Positions 38,440-49,528 of a stretch of 64,000 nucleotides of DNA are shown piece after piece. The DNA is from Saprospiraceae bacterium. Lineage in GTDB: Bacteria; Bacteroidota; Bacteroidia; Chitinophagales; Saprospiraceae. The notes under the pieces were generated by a model, which was not told the DNA's origin, ran no database searches, and saw only the letters and a program-made list of their open reading frames with translations. Positions within the stretch are counted from its first letter, which is position 1; every line of letters starts with the position of its first letter. Made by a program: the position numbers and the translations under genes. The DNA lies in contig JAHDGU010000015.1 of the NCBI GenBank assembly GCA_020627535.1, positions 1 to 64,000 on the forward strand. Reading direction: 5' to 3'.

Positions 38440-38453
38440 TTGATCGGAATCAT
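38440..38453. promoter_or_regulatory. FNR/CRP-like palindrome before the first CBS gene
   Basis: TTGATcggaATCAT fits the FNR-type consensus TTGAT-N4-ATCAA with one mismatch and is centred about 91 bases before the CBS-protein ATG. Similar boxes lie at 39368, 39390, 42394 and 42416. Confidence 0.5.
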
Positions 38454-38537: not shown

Positions 38538-38966
38538 ATGATCAAGCTAAAACAACTCATGACACCATTCCCTTACTGCCTGGAGGAAAATGCGCTATTA
38601 TCAGAGGCTGCCGAGGTATTTGACAAGGGAGCTTTTCATCATTTGCCAGTGCTCTCAGGCGAAGAGTGCGTAGGCCTGCTCAGTAAGACTGACTATCATC
38701 AGTTGCAAGATCGGTTTACACGACTGGGCTATGCCGGGATCGAACTGAAGAATCAGAGATTTATGGAGACAGTGCTTGTACGTGATGTGATGTCCAAGGA
38801 GCTGGTCACTCTTGACCTAGAGGATGATATATCCAAGGCACTAGATATCTTTCTGGAAAATCGCGTACACTCTATTCTGATTTTTGATTCCAAAAGGCTG
38901 GTTGGAATTGTGACAAGTTATGACCTTGCTAGATATTGTAAGCGGCTGGGTCACACAGCTCATTGA
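38538..38966 (+). CDS. Paired CBS-domain protein 1
   Basis: 142 residues forming one Bateman module: CBS 1 (about 1-60, LMTPFPYCLEENALLSEAAEVF) and CBS 2 (about 80-140, VRDVMSKELVTLDLEDDISKAL). Such modules bind adenine nucleotides and report energy state. There is no catalytic domain, so it likely regulates another protein. The adjacent K+ channel starts 19 bases downstream and a second CBS protein follows 1.1 kb later. An FNR-like box lies upstream. Confidence 0.9.
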   Translation: MIKLKQLMTPFPYCLEENALLSEAAEVFDKGAFHHLPVLSGEECVGLLSKTDYHQLQDRFTRLGYAGIELKNQRFMETVLVRDVMSKELVTLDLEDDISKALDIFLENRVHSILIFDSKRLVGIVTSYDLARYCKRLGHTAH

Positions 38967-38985
38967 TCTGTAGTCTATCTTGTAC

Positions 38986-39333
38986 ATGCTCAACGGAATC
39001 ATATCCTTCCTGTATGACAAAGACTACAGGAATCTGCTCATATCAAGTGTCTTGATCCTCTGTGGTGGGGCAACTTTCTATCATTTCGTGGAGGGCTGGT
39101 CTTGGGTCGACTCTATTTATTTTTCCTTTATCTCATTGACGACTGTGGGCTTTGGAGATATCACTCCGGAGACTTCTCTCGGCAAGATATTTACCATTTT
39201 TTACTTGACCATCGGTATCGGATTGATATTGACCTTCCTTGACATTTTATTCAAGCACTACTCTGTGAGTGCTAGAAATATGCAAAAGGCACAACCGGCA
39301 GATCTTGGATCCACTGGAGGGAAAAACTCCTAG
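38986..39333 (+). CDS. Two-helix potassium channel
   Basis: 115 residues with the pore architecture of Ion_trans_2 proteins: helix 1 (about 17-35), pore helix, selectivity filter TVGFGD at 53-58, helix 2 (about 65-87). There is no cytoplasmic RCK domain, only a short polar tail, so gating must come from elsewhere. The flanking CBS proteins are attractive candidates (inference). Starts at 38980 (TTG) and 38986 (ATG) are possible; I use the ATG. It belongs to the oxygen/redox island. Confidence 0.9.
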   Translation: MLNGIISFLYDKDYRNLLISSVLILCGGATFYHFVEGWSWVDSIYFSFISLTTVGFGDITPETSLGKIFTIFYLTIGIGLILTFLDILFKHYSVSARNMQKAQPADLGSTGGKNS

Positions 39334-39367
39334 GCGATCCTTCTTTGCTACTACATTGGACGAGTAG

Positions 39368-39403
39368 ATGATCATAATCATTGGTCAAGATGATTAACAT
39401 CAT
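39368..39403. promoter_or_regulatory. Two tandem FNR/CRP-like palindromes
   Basis: ATGATcataATCAT (39368-39381) and ATGATtaacATCAT (39390-39403) are perfect palindromes with four-base spacers, 22 bases centre to centre (two helical turns). They lie in the 126-base gap after the K+ channel gene, 57 bases before the small membrane-protein ATG. Confidence 0.6.
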
Positions 39404-39459
39404 TGATCCGATGAAATGCTCACTTGATCTTTGGGCCATACAACAAAAACACTATCATC

Positions 39460-39702
39460 ATGAAAATTCTATCAGCTTCCCTCTACACAGTTGTTCTTCG
39501 ATTCTATTTTCTCACTTTTTACGTGATTGGCGTAGTGTTGACAGGACATATGCCCTGGGCGCTCCTAGCATTGCCAATTTTTCTTTCGGCAATCCTTGCC
39601 GTGAGAATCTTTCCAGAAAAAGTCAAGCCCGTCACCAGCACCAAAGTTCGTTCCAGTGCACCGACGGCGGTATCTATCAATATCAATAAACAGGCAGCAT
39701 GA
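39460..39702 (+). CDS. Small two-helix membrane protein
   Basis: 80 residues with two hydrophobic segments (VLRFYFLTFYVIGVVLTG and WALLALPIFLSAILAV) and a polar tail. No recognised family. The ATG at 39460 gives the best start; an upstream in-frame ATG at 39424 adds 12 polar residues. Its stop overlaps the next CBS gene start by four bases, so the two are made together. It could anchor or partner the CBS protein, which has no membrane segment of its own. Confidence 0.7.
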   Translation: MKILSASLYTVVLRFYFLTFYVIGVVLTGHMPWALLALPIFLSAILAVRIFPEKVKPVTSTKVRSSAPTAVSININKQAA

Positions 39703-40130
39703 ATTTACTAGCACCCATCAGTAGTATCATGACCACTGATCTCATGACTGTGAGTCCTGAGGACACTTTGCAGACAATCCAGGAGATTTTTGATACGACA
39801 CAGATCAATCACCTTCCCGTGGTATCCAAGCGTAAGCTCGTAGGACTTATCAGCTCCAAAGACTTTCAGCGACAGCTAGGAAAACGCAATGACAGTCGCC
39901 AATGGCATTATGAGAAAGATCACATCAGAGCGAAGGATTTTATGACAAGTAAGCTCGCTAAGCTCAATGAGTATGATCGTCTAGATCTTGCTATAGATTT
40001 ATTCAAGCGCAATCGTTTTCACAGCTTACCTGTGGTAGATAGTCAAGACAATCTCGTCGGTATCGTGACGACGCATGATGTGATCGTCTTGCTCTCCGAG
40101 GCAACGACCTTGACCAGAGAGTATGCTTGA
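39699..40130 (+). CDS. Paired CBS-domain protein 2
   Basis: 143 residues, one Bateman module: CBS 1 with SIMTTDLMTVSPEDTLQTIQEIF and LVGLISSKDF, CBS 2 with AKDFMTSKLAKLNEYDRLDLAIDLF and LVGIVTTHDVI. Probable adenine-nucleotide sensor. It is coupled to the small membrane protein by an ATGA overlap and converges on the REC-Crp regulator gene, with eight bases between the two stops. Confidence 0.9.
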   Translation: MNLLAPISSIMTTDLMTVSPEDTLQTIQEIFDTTQINHLPVVSKRKLVGLISSKDFQRQLGKRNDSRQWHYEKDHIRAKDFMTSKLAKLNEYDRLDLAIDLFKRNRFHSLPVVDSQDNLVGIVTTHDVIVLLSEATTLTREYA

Positions 40131-40138
40131 ATGAGCAA

Positions 40139-41170
40139 TTACTGAGGTATGGATTCGAGTGCCTCTTTCTGGAGGACTTGGATCCTATCTCTATCTACGC
40201 TGATGAGGCCTTGAGATTTAAACTCTGACATGGTCCTGATGAGTGTCTCTTTGGCGATCCCAGCGATCTTGGCAAGATCATCTCGGCTGATTTCGACTTC
40301 GCTTTGTGAGCCTTCTGTGATCTTCAGGATGGCATTCGCAGTTTTCCTTCTTACCGAGCTATATGCTAATTCGAGGAGTTGCTCTTCGCCATGAGAGATG
40401 CGCTCTGCCAGAATTCTCAGCAGAGCGTTGGCACTGTCCGCTTGATTGAGCATGAGATTTTCGATACGATCGATAGCGATATGGAAGACCTCTGCGTGAT
40501 CCAGGGTCTCAGCACTTTCGCGATGAGACTTCTGTGTCAGCGCATCGACATGACCAAAGAGATCTCCTTCGTCATGGATATTAAGGATCAATTCCTTACC
40601 AAATTCATTGCTCCTGTAGGATTTGATACGTCCAGACTTGACCAGGTAGACCCAGTGACATCTTGTACCTGATCGGTAGATGACTTCTGATTTATCGTAA
40701 GATCTGAGTTCTGATTCTTGACACAGCTGTAAGATCTCAGCAGTGGCACGGTCTTTTGAGAAAAAACTCCTGCTCTGATTGGTCGTCTGACTTCCACGCT
40801 CGGCGGCTTTATTGAGTCTCCTCTGGATAGTCTCGAGAAGATCTGTATCATCAAATGGCTTGGTGAGATAGTCATCTGCACCCAAATTCATCCCTTTGCG
40901 GAAATCGATTTTCTCCGATTTTGCTGTCAAGAAGATGAATGGTATATACTTCGTGCTGTCACCACTTGAGAGGATTTTGAGTACCCCATAGCCATCAAGC
41001 CTTGGCATCATCACATCACAGAGTATCAAGTCTGGAAGATGCTCCTGTACCATGGCCACTCCTTTGATTCCATCTTCAGCCTGGTAGACTTCATAGCCAG
41101 ATAGCTCTAGGATCTCCACGAGATTGTCTCTGACTTCGAAGTTGTCTTCTATGACGACAATTTTTTTCAT
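40139..41170 (-). CDS. Receiver fused to a Crp/Fnr-type transcription regulator
   Basis: 343 residues. Receiver domain (about 1-120) with E8/D9, phosphoacceptor D52 in LILCDVMMP and K in YLTKPFDD. A cyclic-nucleotide-like beta barrel (about 145-250) follows and a Crp-type winged helix (about 270-335). The recognition helix reads AKETLIRTMSEF, keeping the E and R that contact TGA half-sites in Crp and Fnr. There is no cysteine set for an FNR iron-sulphur cluster, so the signal should be phosphorylation by the PAS kinase whose gene overlaps it (ATGA). It works like FixJ and FixK in one protein. Confidence 0.92.
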   Translation of the reverse strand: MKKIVVIEDNFEVRDNLVEILELSGYEVYQAEDGIKGVAMVQEHLPDLILCDVMMPRLDGYGVLKILSSGDSTKYIPFIFLTAKSEKIDFRKGMNLGADDYLTKPFDDTDLLETIQRRLNKAAERGSQTTNQSRSFFSKDRATAEILQLCQESELRSYDKSEVIYRSGTRCHWVYLVKSGRIKSYRSNEFGKELILNIHDEGDLFGHVDALTQKSHRESAETLDHAEVFHIAIDRIENLMLNQADSANALLRILAERISHGEEQLLELAYSSVRRKTANAILKITEGSQSEVEISRDDLAKIAGIAKETLIRTMSEFKSQGLISVDRDRIQVLQKEALESIPQ

Positions 41171-42390
41171 TGGGTCTTGGGAAGTGTGACGGTGAAGGTA
41201 GTTCCTTGGCTCTCTTTACTACGAAAAGTGATGCTGCCCTCGAGCATCTCGACATAGCGCTTGACGATATGAAGTCCTAGTCCGGTCCCTTTGATATTTT
41301 CGACATTTTGTGCTCGGAAAAATCTAGAGAACAAGTGCTTTTGATCTTGAAGAGGAATCCCAAGGCCATCATCGATCACATGGATCACCACTTGATCTGC
41401 TTGATCTTCCATCTGGATCTTGACCGTGCCTTCAGACCGGCCATATTTGATGGCATTGGAGACGAGGTTGAAAAATATGTTTTTCAAGATTCGAGGATCA
41501 GAGTCTATGCGGTAGCTGTTCGGGCCATCGAGACTGATGTTGATGCCTCTAGTATCCAAGGCCTTCATCTCTTCGAGTAGCTCTAGGAGGAGTTTTGACA
41601 GGTCAATTGACTCTGTGTTTGCCGAGATCTTACCTTCTTCTAGCTTGCTGAGAGATAGAAAGTCATTGAGGATTCCTGTGAGATTGTCCACAGCACTCTT
41701 GATCCTACTGATGTGTTTTTCCCGATTGGCTTGCTGTGCCTCGGTAGGGTACTTGGATATCAGTGCTGCACTTGACAGGATGGTACTGAGCGGCGTACGA
41801 AACTCGTGCGAGGCCATCGAGACGAATCTACTTTTCAATTCGCTCAGCTCTTTTTCTTTTTGCAGACTCGCTGTCAGCTCTTTCTCACTTTTCTTGAGCG
41901 CAGCGTTAGTTGCGAGTAGTCTATTGACTACACTTTCGAGCTCATCAGTTCTCTCCTGGACCTTTTTTTCAAGCGATGCATTGACTTGCTCGAGTTTTTC
42001 TCGACCTTCTACGATCTCCGAGATATCATGGACTACACCTGTAAATATGACACGATCATTGAGGAAGACCTCACTCACTGCTAGTCGAAAAGGGAATACG
42101 GTGCCGTCTTTTCTCTTGCCCTCAACATTGCGACCGATGCCGATGATCTTGGGTACCCTGGTTGTCACATAATTATTGATGTACTGATCATGCTGGCGTG
42201 CATCATCGATCGGCATGAGCATCTTGACATTTTGCCCGATCAGTTCAGACTCATCATAGCCAAAGAGGCTTGAGGCAGCCTTATTGAGACTTTCGATTTC
42301 GCCTCTTGCATTGATGGTGATGATGCCGTCAATGGCCATCTCTATGACGGCCTGTAGCCTCGAGGCGATATCTGCGTAGTCGGTACTCAT
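41167..42390 (-). CDS. FixL-like PAS sensor histidine kinase (probable haem oxygen sensor)
   Basis: 407-residue soluble kinase. PAS domain (about 8-128) followed by a coiled coil, HisKA with H195 in ASHEFRTPL, and HATPase with N box, DDGLGIPL and GTGLGLHIVKRY. The PAS segment RQHDQYINNY through PKIIGIGR matches the haem pocket of FixL: H67 stands where the proximal haem histidine is and R87 where the oxygen-contacting arginine is. Two other pocket residues differ (N73, K81). Likely an oxygen sensor for the overlapping REC-Crp regulator. No membrane segment. Confidence 0.88.
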   Translation of the reverse strand: MSTDYADIASRLQAVIEMAIDGIITINARGEIESLNKAASSLFGYDESELIGQNVKMLMPIDDARQHDQYINNYVTTRVPKIIGIGRNVEGKRKDGTVFPFRLAVSEVFLNDRVIFTGVVHDISEIVEGREKLEQVNASLEKKVQERTDELESVVNRLLATNAALKKSEKELTASLQKEKELSELKSRFVSMASHEFRTPLSTILSSAALISKYPTEAQQANREKHISRIKSAVDNLTGILNDFLSLSKLEEGKISANTESIDLSKLLLELLEEMKALDTRGINISLDGPNSYRIDSDPRILKNIFFNLVSNAIKYGRSEGTVKIQMEDQADQVVIHVIDDGLGIPLQDQKHLFSRFFRAQNVENIKGTGLGLHIVKRYVEMLEGSITFRSKESQGTTFTVTLPKTQ

Positions 42391-42393
42391 GGA

Positions 42394-42429
42394 TTGATAG
42401 GAATCATCCTATTCGATGATTACGGTCAT
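42394..42429. promoter_or_regulatory. Two FNR/CRP-like palindromes in the divergent kinase/usp region
   Basis: TTGATaggaATCAT (42394-42407) and ATGATtacgGTCAT (42416-42429, one mismatch) are again 22 bases apart centre to centre, like the pair at 39368-39403. They lie directly upstream of the FixL-like gene and 73-108 bases before the universal-stress gene. Confidence 0.6.
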
Positions 42430-42501: not shown

Positions 42502-43575
42502 ATGGCTTCATTGAAAGTATTTGGCATGCCATCTATCAATCATAAGATGTATATCACTGAACTCACCAAGGAGATCAATAAGACCAAGGTAGAGGTCGAT
42601 ATACAAGAGATAGATGATATAAATGAGATGATGAAGGCGCAGATCAGCTCTATCCCTTCCATCCTATTTGACAATGGGCTGGTGATGAGCAAGGACACTG
42701 GACAGGATCTAACGGATTTTTTTAGATCTGTGGGCACTACAGTGAGGGATCTTTATCCGGCTGTCGCCAAAAAGAAAGTTCTAGTCGGTGTAGACTATTC
42801 GGCCGCCTCAGACCATGTGCTTCAAGCAATTAGCCACTTTTTGGACAGAAAGTCATGCAGTTTTCACTTTTTTCACGCAGTGAGACCTTATCCGTCTGTT
42901 TATGACGCTACTGTTGTCGATATGTCGCCAGACCTCGATCAAGCCAAGTCAGTCATAGAATTCAAAGTGCAACGATATTGTGAAGGTGTGGATTCTGAGT
43001 GCGAAGTAGTAAGTGGATTTGCCACGGATGAGATCATCTCTAGGTCAAAAGACTATGACCTCATAATCCTCGGTACCACAGGTGCTGGACAGAAGGGTGA
43101 AGTTGCATTCACACTCGGCTCAGTATCGCGCAACGTCGCCATAAATGCCAAGTGCCCCGTACTCTTGATTCCGCAAGACTGGCAGATTAAGGATCTTCAG
43201 AGAGTATTGATGGCTGAGGGAATGGAGGATAAGGCATTTGAATCTACCAGCTGGATGCTAGACCAGGACAAGATTGACTTGACGCGCATTCATGTGGCTC
43301 AAGAATTTGATTACAATCTGGTTTTTGATGCAACAGTTCTAGTCACCCAGAGATCGATTCCAGATGCCCTGCTAGAAGAGGCGCGAGTCCGCCAGAGTGA
43401 TCTGGTAGTCCTCAAGAAGACCAAGAAGAACCTGATCAAGAAGTGGATCGAGGGCAGTACCACCAATCAAGTGCTGAGAGATGCAGCTGTACCGATCCTT
43501 GTACTCCATCAGATCAAGTCCTGCAGATGCGGTGGCGAATGCAAAAAGTCGCCTGAGCATAGATGTCACCACTAG
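42502..43575 (+). CDS. Universal stress protein with N-terminal thioredoxin-like domain and Cys/His tail
   Basis: 357 residues. N-terminal about 80 residues resemble a small thioredoxin-fold domain without its CxxC (SLKVFGMPSINHKMYITEL). Then come a complete UspA domain (about 90-230) with KKKVLVGVDYSAAS and the ATP-loop GTTGAGQKGEVAFTLGSVSRNV, and a second, degenerate Usp-like half. The C-terminus is a compact Cys/His cluster (CRCGGECKKSPEHRCHH), a likely metal-binding tail. It is divergent from the FixL-like kinase and 24 bases upstream of ccoI, so probably part of the cbb3 operon. Confidence 0.85.
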   Translation: MASLKVFGMPSINHKMYITELTKEINKTKVEVDIQEIDDINEMMKAQISSIPSILFDNGLVMSKDTGQDLTDFFRSVGTTVRDLYPAVAKKKVLVGVDYSAASDHVLQAISHFLDRKSCSFHFFHAVRPYPSVYDATVVDMSPDLDQAKSVIEFKVQRYCEGVDSECEVVSGFATDEIISRSKDYDLIILGTTGAGQKGEVAFTLGSVSRNVAINAKCPVLLIPQDWQIKDLQRVLMAEGMEDKAFESTSWMLDQDKIDLTRIHVAQEFDYNLVFDATVLVTQRSIPDALLEEARVRQSDLVVLKKTKKNLIKKWIEGSTTNQVLRDAAVPILVLHQIKSCRCGGECKKSPEHRCHH

Positions 43576-43599: not shown

Positions 43600-45157
43600 A
43601 TGGCTAGTATCGATATAATCTCCCAAGACACTGCCCTGGCGAGCCAGGACCTAGCGACTTGTTCTTACTGCAAAGAGAGCTGTGTAGACACAGATATCAT
43701 TGTCGGAGAAGAGCATTTTTGCTGTCATGGCTGTCAGTCGGTATGGGAGATTCTCCATGAGAGCGATCTAGCGTCATTTTATACCTTGCTCGAGGATCGT
43801 CCAGGCTCTATGAGATGGAAAAAGTCAAGTGACTTTGACTTTTTGATGGATCCCGCCATCGAGGATCGACTGGTCAAATTTGGTACCTCAGAGCAAGCCA
43901 CACTCTTTTTGGACCTTCCGCAGATACACTGTGTAGCCTGTGTGTGGTTGCTCGAGAGACTACCCAAGCTTTTGCCAGGAGTGCAATACTGTCGTGTAGA
44001 TTTCGGCAAGAAGCGCGCGCGGATCGGCTACAGCAGACTTGAGACCAGTCTCTATGACATTGCACTGCTTCTAGACAAGATCGGCTACAAGGCAAGCTTC
44101 GCACATGAAAATATACAGGACGATCACCAAGCACAGAAACCGGTCAATCGCCGTCTCGTCTACCAAATAGGACTAGCAGGATTTTGCTTTGGGAATACCA
44201 TGTTGCTCAGTTTTCCAGATTATCTTGGATATGAGGCCAATGATGCCTTTCGATACCTTGTTCTCGGCAAAATCGCCTTGGCTGCACCTGTTGTATTTTA
44301 TTCTGCAGGGGATTTTCTCAAGGAAGCTTACAGATCTATCAGGTATAGGAATATCAGTCTGGATGTGCCGATCGCAATAGGACTCATGGCCTTGTTCACC
44401 CAGAGCTGTGTGGAGCTTATTACCGGTAGTGGTCCTGGCTATTTTGATAGCATGATCGGCTTTGTTTTTTTCTTGCTGATCGGTAGATGGTTTCAACAAA
44501 AGACCTACAGCCACATCAGATTTGATAGAGATTACAGCTCGTTTTTCCCGATCTCAGTCTTGAGACGCAGTGAGGAAGACTGGAGCAATGTGACTCTTGC
44601 AGAGCTGCGTGTGGGAGACGAGATACTCGTCAAGCAGGACCAGGTCGTTCCTTGTGATGGCTATCTGACCAGCGAGCAGACCAAGATTGATTTTAGCTTT
44701 GTCACTGGGGAGTCTGATCCGATCTATATCCGACGAGGTTAAGAGCTCAAGGCTGGTGGTAAGATCCTCTCGAGTCCTGCGACTCTCAGAGTGGCCCGTA
44801 CGGTAACGCAGAGTGATCTCACCCAGCTATGGACTAGCAATGGCAATAGTGACAAGCGATACGTCAAGTTGCTTGATGAAATCGGGAAGTACTTTACCAT
44901 CGGCATCGTATTGATTGCCTCAGGCACGCTAGCCTATTGGTGGCAGATCAGCGATCGAGCCGCACTGCAAAATTTTATCAGTGTGTTGATCATCGCTTGC
45001 CCTTGTGTGCTGGCGCTATCGATACCCTTTGTCTATGGTACCGCTATGCGTCTGCTGCAGAAAGAGAAGATCTACACGCGTGATACCAATAGCCTGCTAA
45101 AGCTGAGCGAAATAGACCATGTCGTATTTGACAAGACTGGTACGCTCACCGATCATC
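43600..45157 (+). pseudogene. ccoI: cbb3-type copper P-type ATPase gene, nonsense-interrupted and 3'-deleted
   Basis: Copper exporter that supplies the cbb3 oxidase. N-terminal Cys-rich domain (YCKESCVDTD, CCHGCQSVWE), HMA domain with HCVACVWLLERL, membrane helices and the start of the actuator domain with FVTGESDPIYI are intact. An in-frame TAA at 44740-44742 follows, after which the same frame continues (ELKAGGKILSSP). The CPC helix (IIACPCVLALS) and the phosphorylation motif DKTGTLTD are then present. Similarity ends there, at about 45157, where the sequence becomes ccoG. The nucleotide-binding domain and the last helices are absent. The frame then stops at 45201. It cannot make a working pump. 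Confidence 0.92.
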
Positions 45158-45706
45158 CAGCTAGAATGCATCAACTGTACTGCCTGTATGGATGCCTGTG
45201 ACAATGTCATGGAAAAGATCAATAGACCACTAGGTCTGATCAGAGTAGACAGCCTTGAGGGAATCACTTCAGGAACTAGATCAGTGATCAATACCAGATC
45301 GATTGCCTATCTGGCTTTGTTCTTGGCGCTGATCGGACTAGAAGGCTTTCTCTTTGCTGTGAGAGGTGATGTCGAAGCGCTTCTATTGCGTACACCAGGT
45401 ATGCTCTATCATGAGAATAGACCTGGCATCATCTCCAACCTATACAATTATCAGATCGACAACAAGACAAAAGAAGAGCTCGAAGTGAGATTTGTCATCG
45501 AAGGATTTGAGACTGCGGAGATTGAATATATCGGACAGGCTCCTACATTGATGCCCAGTCAAGAGGCTGAGGGTCTACTCTTCATACATATACCCAGAGA
45601 GGATCTCACTGAGCGCTCTCTTAAACTCAGGGTAAAAGCCATCAAGGGCGAACGAGTTCTTGATGAGCTCAGCACTACATTTTTCTCACCTGTATCAAAC
45701 GAATAA
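45158..45706 (+). pseudogene. ccoG: 3' remnant of cbb3 assembly protein gene ccoG
   Basis: In frame +2 relative to the ATPase, the sequence from about 45155 reads IQLECINCTACMDACDNVM, the second 4Fe-4S cluster motif of CcoG/FixG. GLIRVDSLEG, a membrane helix (about 45300-45360) and the C-terminal Ig-like domain (TPGMLYHE, GIISNLYNYQIDNKT) follow, ending normally at 45706. The first cluster and four of the five helices are missing. The ATG at 45119 lies inside the ATPase frame and gives a meaningless 12-residue lead. This is the other side of a deletion joint with ccoI. Confidence 0.92.
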
Positions 45707-45709
45707 GAT

Positions 45710-46147
45710 ATGAACTGGGGACATTCACTACTTGGATTTTTTATTTTATACATCAGTTTTTTGGTCTTTGTCGTATTCCAATCTCGCAAAGTGGACCACT
45801 CGCTGGTGATGGATAACTACTATGCGCACGATCTACAATATCAGCAGCGGTATGACCAGATTTATGCCAGAGGTGCACTCAAGCATGATCTTGAGTTTGT
45901 CAGTGAGCGAAGCAGTTCGCTCTTGACCCTTGACTATGGTCCTGAGCATGGAGACATCGAGATGACGCTCAGCTTTTATCGTGCTATGGACAAGTCCATG
46001 GATCGAAGCACTACTTACACTCTACAGGCGGATGAGTGCTGCGTGCAGCACAGCACTGAGAGGCTTCAAGCTGGACTATGGACCGTAGAGGTGGAGTGGA
46101 CAGAGGGCAATGTGAGCTACTACAAAAAAGATCAGATCACACTTTAG
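45710..46147 (+). CDS. ccoH: CcoH/FixH-family cbb3 oxidase assembly protein
   Basis: 145 residues: one N-terminal membrane helix (LLGFFILYISFLVFVVFQS), the family segment DNYYAHDLQYQQRYD, and a periplasmic beta-rich domain with the DECC pair later. FixH/CcoH helps assemble the cbb3 oxidase. It follows the ccoG remnant by three bases and looks intact, even though the oxidase genes that should precede it are gone. Confidence 0.85.
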   Translation: MNWGHSLLGFFILYISFLVFVVFQSRKVDHSLVMDNYYAHDLQYQQRYDQIYARGALKHDLEFVSERSSSLLTLDYGPEHGDIEMTLSFYRAMDKSMDRSTTYTLQADECCVQHSTERLQAGLWTVEVEWTEGNVSYYKKDQITL

Positions 46148-46158
46148 GTCATAGGAGG

Positions 46159-46863
46159 ATGATTGGCGTTTGTTTTTTGATGGGACTATTGGGAAGTGCG
46201 CACTGCCTAGGTATGTGCGGAGCACTTGCATTTGGTGTATCGTCACTGCCTGTATATGGCATGAGACAGCAGCTATCACGAGCAGCTATCTATAATTCTG
46301 GTCGCGTGTTGTCTTATGCTGGGCTCGGTCTGCTGGTCGGTACACTAGCAGATGCTGCGATATGGCATGAGTGGCAGACATCCCTTTCATTTGTCATGGG
46401 AGGCTTTTTGATTGTATTATCTCTACTTTCCCTTGACCTTGAAAAGCTCTTACATCGCTCTTCGTGGGTTACAAGTTACTACAAGCAAGTACAGAGCTTC
46501 ATCGGGTCGGCCCTCAAGACCAGAGCCGCGCAGTTTCCGCTGGCAGTAGGTGGTCTCAATGGGCTTCTGCCCTGCGGTATGGTATATCTGGCGCTGGCAG
46601 CAGGAGTGTCGACGGCATCTGCGATGAAGTCTGCGCTCTGTATGACAGCATTTGGCCTAGGGACTTTCCCACTCATGTTTTTGTTGATGATCATTCCTAC
46701 TCGTCATCCTATGTTTAGATCTATCAGACGGGTGACCAGTAGGATCTTGCCATTTTGCCAAGCTGGCCTAGGGATATATCTGATCTACAGAGGAATCAGT
46801 GCGTCGGCTCCGGTGACACTTAATTACTGGATTGCCATCTTGAATCCCACCATGTGTCATTGA
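46159..46863 (+). CDS. Sulfite exporter TauE/SafE-like (DsbD-related) membrane protein
   Basis: 235 residues with about six helices. The first carries GSAHCLGMCGAL, the Cys-x3-Cys signature of the cbb3-linked TauE/SafE-type proteins that follow ccoH in many Bacteroidota, where a role in copper or electron transfer to the oxidase is suspected. A later helix has GLLPCGMVY. I use the ATG at 46159, which directly follows AGGAGG; the spacing is too short for that site, so the ATG at 46180 is an alternative. Confidence 0.88.
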   Translation: MIGVCFLMGLLGSAHCLGMCGALAFGVSSLPVYGMRQQLSRAAIYNSGRVLSYAGLGLLVGTLADAAIWHEWQTSLSFVMGGFLIVLSLLSLDLEKLLHRSSWVTSYYKQVQSFIGSALKTRAAQFPLAVGGLNGLLPCGMVYLALAAGVSTASAMKSALCMTAFGLGTFPLMFLLMIIPTRHPMFRSIRRVTSRILPFCQAGLGIYLIYRGISASAPVTLNYWIAILNPTMCH

Positions 46864-46872
46864 TACGGAATA

Positions 46873-47490
46873 CTACCACTTAGGACAGTGGCAACCGCTA
46901 TCCCAATTGGGCTTGTAAAAGAGTCCGATTCCGACGAAGAAGTTATCTACACCGCCATTGGGCGTCTGGAGTCCTGCATTGGACATGTGTCGAAATCGTC
47001 CTTCAATACCCACATCTAGCTTGGACTCTGGTAGAGGGATAAAAAATCCCACACCGATATTGTCCGAAAAGATGAATCCATCAGCCTGTAGACTTGTCTC
47101 CGCACTCATATAGTGTGGTCCAGCACCGATGAAGGCATATCCCCAGAGCTTGTCTAGGGTCAGCCAGTCAAATCGAACTCCGAGATTAAGACCTGCATCA
47201 AAGGCACTTGTGGTTTGAAGCTCTGGATCTGTAGGGCTCAGACTCACCATCGCGAGCTGTGGCTCTGCATAGAAACTCAGTCTCCTCCAGAAGCTATGAT
47301 AAAACGGTGCATAGCTGCCATACAAGCGCAATAGATTTGCCCGATACTCTACATTTTCCGGAAGGACCTCGGCATAGACAGGGTAGGAATATCCAGCGCC
47401 AATCCACACAGGTTTCACTTTCCTCTGTGCTTCGAGCTCTTGGATGCCAAAGCTCATGATGATGAGGAGTGCTAGTGCTCTTAGTTTCAT
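46873..47490 (-). CDS. Outer-membrane beta-barrel protein
   Basis: From the ATG at 47490 the protein has a signal peptide (MKLRALALLIIMSFGIQELEAQ) and about 180 residues of barrel-like alternating strands ending YKPNWDSGCHCPKW, with a CHCP tail that is unusual for the class. No family can be assigned. The longer frame from 47628 overlaps the divergent gene and lacks an N-terminal signal. It converges on the TauE/SafE gene. Confidence 0.7.
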   Translation of the reverse strand: MKLRALALLIIMSFGIQELEAQRKVKPVWIGAGYSYPVYAEVLPENVEYRANLLRLYGSYAPFYHSFWRRLSFYAEPQLAMVSLSPTDPELQTTSAFDAGLNLGVRFDWLTLDKLWGYAFIGAGPHYMSAETSLQADGFIFSDNIGVGFFIPLPESKLDVGIEGRFRHMSNAGLQTPNGGVDNFFVGIGLFYKPNWDSGCHCPKW

Positions 47491-47635
47491 ATGCATTTCA
47501 ACGATTTGGTGAGGTTTTTCTTGCACCATCTGTGTGCTTGTAAGAGTCTTGATGATCTCGGATAGTTGTATATGACATGTGAGAAAATCAATCTTTGTGT
47601 TTGAAGCATTGAATCGAAAAGGCTTCATCCGCTAC

Positions 47636-49528
47636 ATGAAGATAGAGCAGTCCATCATTCGTAGAGTCCAGCAATTTTTGGCTGGTATAGAGCCCTTCAG
47701 ATATTTCTCCGAAGAGGACCTCTTGACCCTTTGCCAAAAGACCGTAGTCTCGGTATACTATAAGGATGAAATGATCTTTCGCCGAGATGAGCATGCTGCA
47801 GAGCATTTTTATCTGGTGCGCAAAGGCGCAGTAGAGATTCTGGAGCAGAGGGACAATGTTTATCGTCTTGTAGATAGATGTGGTGAGGCAGATATCTTTG
47901 GCATACGCCCTACGATGGCAAATACATCTTATCTCTATGATGCGAGATGTCAGGAAAGTACGATCATCTATGAGATCCCTGTAGAGCAATTCAAGCTCAC
48001 TTATCGAAATTATCCACGGGCAGTGGACTTTGTTGTACAGCGATTTGCTGCCGGTAGGACTTTTCGGGATGCCTATGAGCCTGTGCTAGAAGAGATTCAA
48101 GTCCTTCAGGGAAAGACAGTCATGATCAATCCTGAGCGCAAGAGTTCTCTTGTTTCTATCACGAAGGAGAGTACTGTGGCAGAAGCAGCTCGACTCATGG
48201 ATGATCATAAGGTCTCATGCGTCATCGTCGTCAATGATGATGGTCACCCTATAGGCATACTGACAGATCGAGACATGCGTCGAATGGTCGCCCTCGAGCT
48301 GAGCAGTTCTGCATCCGTACAGGATCATATGAGTTCACCTGTTTACTGTATCGAGCCACGGAGTGATCTACTCAGCGTCCAGCTCGAGATGGTGAGGCAC
48401 AGCATTAAGCAGATTTGCGTGACGGAGGATGGCACATCGAGGTCTCCAGCAATCAATGTCGTCAGTCAATACGATGTGCTATACGCCAAGGCATCTGATC
48501 CGCTCGTTACGATGCGCCGAATTATCAGAGCTAGGAACACGGTTGAACTCAAGGCGATAAGAGATCAGATTGACCGCAGTCTGGCGGAGTTTGCCAATCA
48601 CGAGGACCAGAGTCGGCTATACCTATCATTGATCAATCAACTCAATGCTCAAATCTGGGTGCGCTGTTGTGAGTTGACCCTAGAAGAGTACAATGAGAGT
48701 GCGGCAATGAAAATTGATAAGGAGCAATTTTGCTTCTTCTCCATGGGGAGCGTGGCTCGTCGAGAGCAACTTACCCGGACGGATCAGGATCATGGTATTG
48801 TCTACCTCGAGAGTCAAGAGAGCAGACAGACGCATTATATGGCTTTCGCCAAAATTCTAGTTGAGCACTTGAGTGAACTTGGCTACCTCAAGTGTAGTGC
48901 AGAAATGATGTCAAGCAATCCAGACTGGTGTCTATCAGTAAGCGAGATGAAGGAGCGGATATCTTCTTGGTTTCTGCGTCCAGAACCGCAGGCGCTCCTA
49001 GATTCCAGCACGTTCTTGGATTTTCGTGTCGAGTTTGGCAATCAAGATTTGTCTTCTGGGCTTGTGCAACATATTCGTGATTTGTATCAGCGCAATCCGC
49101 TGTATTACAATCTCTTAGCGGAGCAGACAGTCAAGACAGCACCGCCATTGTCATTTTTCCGAAAATTTATCGTCGAGAAAAATGGAGATCATGCAGAGCG
49201 ATTTGATATCAAAGGAAGGGCCATTGCGCCGCTCATTGATGCAGTGAGAGTGTTGGCCATTGATACGGGATTTTTTAAAAGTTCCAATACACTTGACCGC
49301 TTGGATCATTTGGCAACAGCCATACCAGAACAAGCTTTGCTATTCAGGGATTGCCAAGAATCCTTGCTCCATATGATGCGCCTGAGACTTGAGAGGTCAC
49401 TCCTCACAGAAAATGGAAGATGGATCGATCCCAAGGCTATTCCCAAGATTGATCGATTGAGACTTCGCCGTGCTTTCAAGTCCACACAGAGATTACAGGA
49501 GTTGTTGAGTCAGAGATATGCTTCGTGA
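47636..49528 (+). CDS. cNMP-binding/CBS/DUF294 nucleotidyltransferase
   Basis: About 630 residues, like the DUF294-family regulators linked to PII-type control. Order: cyclic-nucleotide barrel (about 20-130, FRYFSEEDLLTL and EHFYLVRKGAVEIL), two CBS domains (about 160-285, AARLMDDHKVSCVIVV and GILTDRDMRR), a nucleotidyltransferase core (about 340-450) with SMGSVARREQ and TDQDHGIVY, and a C-terminal helical domain. GS with the following Asp pair fits the catalytic signature. I choose the ATG at 47636 over a GTG at 47579. The exonuclease gene overlaps its end by 11 bases. Confidence 0.9.
   Translation: MKIEQSIIRRVQQFLAGIEPFRYFSEEDLLTLCQKTVVSVYYKDEMIFRRDEHAAEHFYLVRKGAVEILEQRDNVYRLVDRCGEADIFGIRPTMANTSYLYDARCQESTIIYEIPVEQFKLTYRNYPRAVDFVVQRFAAGRTFRDAYEPVLEEIQVLQGKTVMINPERKSSLVSITKESTVAEAARLMDDHKVSCVIVVNDDGHPIGILTDRDMRRMVALELSSSASVQDHMSSPVYCIEPRSDLLSVQLEMVRHSIKQICVTEDGTSRSPAINVVSQYDVLYAKASDPLVTMRRIIRARNTVELKAIRDQIDRSLAEFANHEDQSRLYLSLINQLNAQIWVRCCELTLEEYNESAAMKIDKEQFCFFSMGSVARREQLTRTDQDHGIVYLESQESRQTHYMAFAKILVEHLSELGYLKCSAEMMSSNPDWCLSVSEMKERISSWFLRPEPQALLDSSTFLDFRVEFGNQDLSSGLVQHIRDLYQRNPLYYNLLAEQTVKTAPPLSFFRKFIVEKNGDHAERFDIKGRAIAPLIDAVRVLAIDTGFFKSSNTLDRLDHLATAIPEQALLFRDCQESLLHMMRLRLERSLLTENGRWIDPKAIPKIDRLRLRRAFKSTQRLQELLSQRYAS

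Follow-up and report, generated by a model that had tools for sequence, protein, structure and literature searches.

In a 64,000-nt stretch of a Saprospiraceae genome, here called the window (genome G000, contig C23, positions 1–64000), the front of a ccoI gene runs straight into the back of a ccoG gene, two genes that in intact cbb3 oxidase operons stand several kilobases apart. Has a cbb3 operon been emptied by deletion here and, if so, what is left to the cell for reducing and sensing oxygen? We analysed the window together with its own assembly (4.09 Mb in 25 contigs, 99.67% complete), 60 genomes near the window and 298 genomes of the family; these two genome totals include the window's own genome. 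The reading that we favour, at a probability of about 0.9, is that the locus is the remnant of a cbb3 operon that underwent an internal deletion of ~5.5 kb and also acquired a nonsense codon in ccoI, with the adjacent sensor genes remaining open.

The joint and the operons of relatives

The ccoI frame (plus strand, 43600–45150), covering the 5' two thirds of a gene for a cbb3-type P-type ATPase (Pfam ATPase-cat_bd and E1-E2_ATPase) and now a pseudogene, runs from 43600 through the DKTGTLT motif and ends at 45150. Another frame starts at 45158 with QLECINCTACMDACD, which is ccoG's second cysteine motif, and continues through the FixG_C domain to 45706 (plus strand; PF11614, E = 1.1e-15; PF13746 positions 81–113 of 114), the 5' two thirds of ccoG being gone. 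Between the end of the ccoI frame and the QLECINCTAC start of the ccoG frame lie 7 nt without any filler, GATCATC (plus strand, 45151–45157), which can be assigned with certainty to neither side. Single-strand folding at the joint is ordinary (z = −0.55). A mobile origin of the joint was considered and rejected: no sequence is inserted there, and the G+C content is even across it (0.43–0.51 in 500-base steps).

For comparison we selected the 18 operons whose ccoI precedes ccoG on a single contig, drawn from the 31 relatives that match ccoI strongly (E = 2.9e-72 or better); the other 13 were left out because the pieces lie on separate contigs, stand in another order (G025) or lack FixG_C (G012). 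In all 18 operons the ccoI alignment extends to the last or last but one of the window's 517 residues (517 or 516) and the ccoG alignment begins at residue 1, and these same two points are 5,309–5,835 bp apart (median 5,543). The 5' part of ccoI and the 3' part of ccoG are collinear with these selected intact operons, and the internal part is absent. The joint, which an earlier note on this DNA had placed near 45150–45160, thereby maps to 45151–45157. In one annotated intact operon (L045), the corresponding stretch holds the hydrolase domain and 3' end of ccoI, ccoS (FixS), ccoN and ccoO fused into one ORF of 712 aa, ccoP and the 5' part of ccoG, which is the content that the same note had listed as missing: the ATPase 3' part, ccoS, the oxidase subunits and the ccoG 5' part. 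The ancestral operon would have been of the ordinary cbb3 type, ccoI-ccoS-ccoNO-ccoP-ccoG-ccoH-DsbD_2, in which a single internal deletion of ~5.5 kb would have fused mid-ccoI, in a different frame, with the final third of ccoG, removing all the catalytic subunits.

When the ccoI part was compared with named genomes, 36 loci were retrieved; the best four and 9 of the 36 overall are titled Saprospiraceae, the remainder being chiefly other Bacteroidota. All 36 are at most 44% identical over ccoI, and we rejected them as the undeleted parent on this ground, records of the genome itself possibly having been omitted from the search. Among the operons of relatives, the highest identity over the ccoG part is 52%.

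How the deletion arose is a separate matter. The earlier note had suggested a microhomology deletion at a shared GATC/GAT, and the short ambiguous GATCATC fits this suggestion, as do the two closest-fitting relatives (L111 and L113), which carry GAT or GAC two codons before ATC or ATT. In all 25 relatives compared, the residues preceding QLEC read CPTGIDIR(N/D/H)G(T/V/L/I), and the window lacks them save possibly the last isoleucine codon: the ATC at 45155–45157, directly before the ccoG frame, fits the 'GI|QLEC' found in two of the 25. A join on GAT, however, would keep the glycine codon that follows, and this codon is absent in the window; moreover, the parents are so diverged that a chance match of 3–4 nt means little. 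We therefore consider microhomology at GATC/GAT an unlikely source of the deletion.

The deletion is not the only lesion. The earlier note had credited ccoI with all its expected features up to DKTGTLTD, and while the frame does reach DKTGTLT, an in-frame TAA at 44740–44742 (plus strand), read from the assembled sequence and separate from the joint, had been missed. The ccoI frame is hence not intact up to the joint, and the gene is broken twice, by the deletion and by the nonsense codon.

Downstream of the joint follow ccoH (FixH; plus strand, 45710–46147; PF05751, E = 1.3e-16) and a TauE/SafE-like DsbD_2 membrane gene (plus strand, 46078–46863; PF13386, E = 1.2e-36), which in relatives occupies the same place after ccoH. 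Both frames are open, as the earlier note had stated; since the listed DsbD_2 frame overlaps ccoH, its true start probably lies downstream of 46078. Beyond them the window encodes a PagL-family protein (46873–47628; PF09411, E = 4.1e-11), convergent with the cco remnant, and, at 47579–49528, 3' of the remnant, a protein with cNMP-binding, CBS, DUF294 and DUF294_C domains.

How far has the remnant decayed? At 58 ccoI columns invariant in the 18 relatives the window departs twice, and the relatives, left out in turn, depart 0–5 times. All 17 invariant columns of ccoG (25 relatives) and all 21 of DsbD_2 (22 relatives) are kept; ccoH has 2 invariant columns in relatives, too few to inform. By this measure the remnants are little decayed, and it looks as if either the loss is recent or parts of the locus are still under selection, with the ccoI column test fitting either. 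The genome of the same genus (G001), which might have dated the event, has no cco or sensor matches.

Terminal oxidases in the genome and its relatives

Elsewhere in the 25-contig assembly we found no match to FixO (ccoO) and none to CydA. CcoP likewise gave no match in the genome, nor in G001 and G084; the same search was positive in three independent genomes that do bear cbb3 (G017, G029 and G053), as well as in the genome that supplied the query (G030). The ccoN/ccoO catalytic subunits and ccoP (FixP), which a functional cbb3 operon would include, are thus absent, and the only FixG_C in the genome is that of the remnant. COX1 has a single match, a 614 aa subunit I on contig C22 adjoining a COX2 gene and a gene for a UbiA-type prenyltransferase, so that ccoNOP, sought in the rest of the genome, yields no FixO or CcoP and a lone COX1 beside COX2. 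From the COX1–COX2 layout, we read this remaining oxidase as aa3-type. Its COX2 (L001, 3108–4448; contig C22) has an unusual-looking C-terminal fusion to OmpA (PF00691, E = 3.6e-23). High-affinity oxidases set the lowest oxygen level that an aerobe can use. With one oxidase of the COX1 type and none recovered by the FixO and CydA models, high-affinity oxygen reduction has probably been lost, and the earlier note's conclusion that the cell has lost a high-affinity oxidase probably holds, there being no FixO, CcoP or CydA in the assembly.

These searches also bear on whether the assembler simply skipped ~5.5 kb that the organism possesses. The joint is known from one assembly alone, and a strain mixture or an assembly error could mimic it. 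Yet the pieces keep the order and orientation of the native operon, no long stretch is shared at the joint beyond the 7 unassignable nt (an overlap-based join would presumably need spanning reads), the 25 contigs contain no FixO, CcoP or second COX1 to which the skipped genes could correspond, and ccoI has a stop apart from the joint. On these four grounds we regard an assembly artefact as highly improbable and take the joint, which is plainly there in the assembly, to be most probably present in the living genome as well.

Loss of cbb3 oxidases is common in the family, FixO being absent from 133 of the 298 genomes. FixO is found in 165 of them (164 over the cut-off), in 135 of the 217 with a completeness of 90% or more and a contamination of 5% or less, and in 32 of the 60 near genomes; FixH is found in 167 of the 298. 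The distribution is patchy even within genera (in genus g7, G139, G215 and G298 have FixO and G007 does not), which suggests repeated loss. In the same-genus genome G001 (94% complete) there is no match to FixO, FixG_C, ccoH, ccoI, CcoP or the FixL-type PAS.

Among the 60 genomes, FixO accompanies ccoH in 28 of 28 relatives, FixG_C over the cut-off in 30 of 30 and a strong ccoI match in 31 of 31, and the window's genome is the sole exception, with all three and no FixO; two FixO-less genomes (G035 and G055) have a weak FixG_C below the cut-off. In the 298 family genomes, FixH occurs without FixO in eight and FixO without FixH in six. The seven others of the former kind (G084, G181, G184, G207, G209, G235 and G243) have FixH on contigs of 3.4–11.6 kb, with 340–1,872 bp upstream of QLEC before the contig end, and they retain the ccoG stretch that is missing in the window. 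In L045, FixO ends ~2.26 kb upstream of QLEC, farther than any of these seven contigs extends, and none of the seven shows a joint. A strong ccoI match lies on another contig in G184, G207 and G235; G084, G181, G209 and G243 have weak ATPase matches only, and in these four a real oxidase loss is possible, with no joint visible. The joint is visible in one of the 298 family genomes, that of the window.

Could the remnant still be at work, with the ccoG 3' part, ccoH and DsbD_2 forming a reduced unit for copper or redox assembly that serves the remaining oxidase? The open frames of ccoH, DsbD_2 and the ccoG fragment and the fully kept invariant columns of DsbD_2 and ccoG are what such a unit would show, but a recent deletion would look alike and ccoH, with its two columns, is uninformative. 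Furthermore, the ccoG fragment is without its N-terminal part and first cysteine motif, and in no other of the 60 genomes does ccoH, or a FixG_C match that passes the cut-off, occur where FixO is lacking. We consider a working unit very unlikely, and in the preferred reading of an operon remnant, ccoH and DsbD_2 would be leftovers.

The neighbouring sensor genes

Upstream of ccoI, on the minus strand, lie a gene for a FixL-type PAS histidine kinase (41167–42390) and, overlapping it by 4 bp, one for a response regulator with REC, cNMP-binding and Crp HTH domains (40139–41170). Both frames are open, in agreement with the earlier note, which had described the oxygen-sensing regulators as retained. 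The best structural matches of the kinase PAS are FixL chains (PDB 1dp6, E = 2.4e-28), and the residues aligned to the heme-ligand histidine and the FG-loop arginine of 1dp6 are present, with the HD-YI and GIGR-V stretches conserved. Judged by these residues, the kinase is a putative oxygen sensor of the FixL type, predicted to bind heme and to respond to O2. Between the sensor pair and ccoI sits a universal stress protein gene (plus strand, 42502–43575; PF00582). Near the pair, at 38538–40130, the window also encodes two proteins with CBS domains and a small channel protein (Ion_trans_2), possible candidate members of a sensor regulon. After the deletion, the kinase and the REC-Crp regulator presumably still act on other targets, for example the nearby stress-protein and CBS genes.

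Strong matches to the kinase PAS (51–60% identity) occur in four FixO-less genomes of the 60: G004, G007, G020 (89% complete) and G045 (92% complete). In each of the four, a REC-cNMP-Crp gene adjoins the PAS kinase, so possession of the sensor without cbb3 is not special to the window's genome. A universal stress protein gene lies near the FixL-type gene in G004, G007 and G020, and a CBS gene in G020; in G045, one further neighbour of the sensor was scanned and is PdxJ. In FixO-less G004 (L128; contig C42, 78000–94000), the genes for the FixL-type kinase, the REC-Crp regulator and the universal stress protein stand beside those of another heme-copper oxidase (COX2, COX1, SCO1 and cytochrome c).

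Potential binding sites were also counted. The FNR-like pattern TTGAYNNNNRTCAA, with at most one mismatch, has 24 matches in the window against 13.4 expected. Two near-identical FNR/Crp-like boxes, TTGATNGGAATCAT, lie at 38440–38453, ~85 bp upstream of the gene for a CBS-domain protein, and at 42394–42407, between the genes for the kinase and the universal stress protein. The pattern TTGATNGGAATCA, chosen after these two boxes had been seen, occurs three times in the 4.09 Mb genome, at 38440 and 42394 here and once next to two proteins that match no Pfam family; as the pattern is post hoc, the boxes are suggestive only. Tentatively, we propose that the FixL/REC-Crp pair of this family might not be a dedicated cbb3 regulator and could instead lie at the heart of a stress regulon that responds to oxygen, comprises universal stress proteins, CBS-domain proteins and alternative oxidases, and outlasts repeated cbb3 loss; the regulon would be seen here shortly after the deletion. 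We hold this proposal somewhat less probable than its opposite.

Comparison with known systems

The surviving pieces have the same order and domains as the cbb3 operons of Saprospiraceae and other Bacteroidota, and identity to the operons of relatives is 35–44% for ccoI (over ~500 aa, 18 operons), 29–52% for the ccoG part, 21–38% for ccoH and 28–43% for DsbD_2. Unlike the intact operons, the window lacks ~5.5 kb inside, fuses its ends out of frame, carries a nonsense codon and has no catalytic subunit. The PAS domain of the sensor kinase is alike to those of the FixL kinases (1dp6, 1drm, 8js5). Rhizobial FixL has separate FixJ and FixK partners, whereas here one REC-cNMP-Crp protein is the partner.

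We read the locus as a seemingly recent case of a common gene loss and not as a new kind of system. Its interest is that the loss is seen as an intermediate, apparently caught early, with both ends recognisable and little decayed beside an open oxygen-sensor gene pair, which makes the locus suited to asking what an oxygen-sensing circuit regulates after its best-known target is gone. It also carries a warning for annotation: matches to ccoG, ccoH and ccoI need not imply a cbb3 oxidase. We found no report of a cbb3 deletion remnant in Saprospiraceae among the open-licence titles and abstract openings that our searches listed. A related case is Candidatus Azoamicus ciliaticola, for which a secondary loss of cbb3 is stated, with partner genes, those for small c4 and c5 cytochromes, being kept (PMC11549363). 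The likeness is that the oxidase is gone and accessory components persist; the difference is that Azoamicus is an endosymbiont reported to lack the oxidase, whereas the genome of the window, at 4.1 Mb, still has the two broken operon ends in position.
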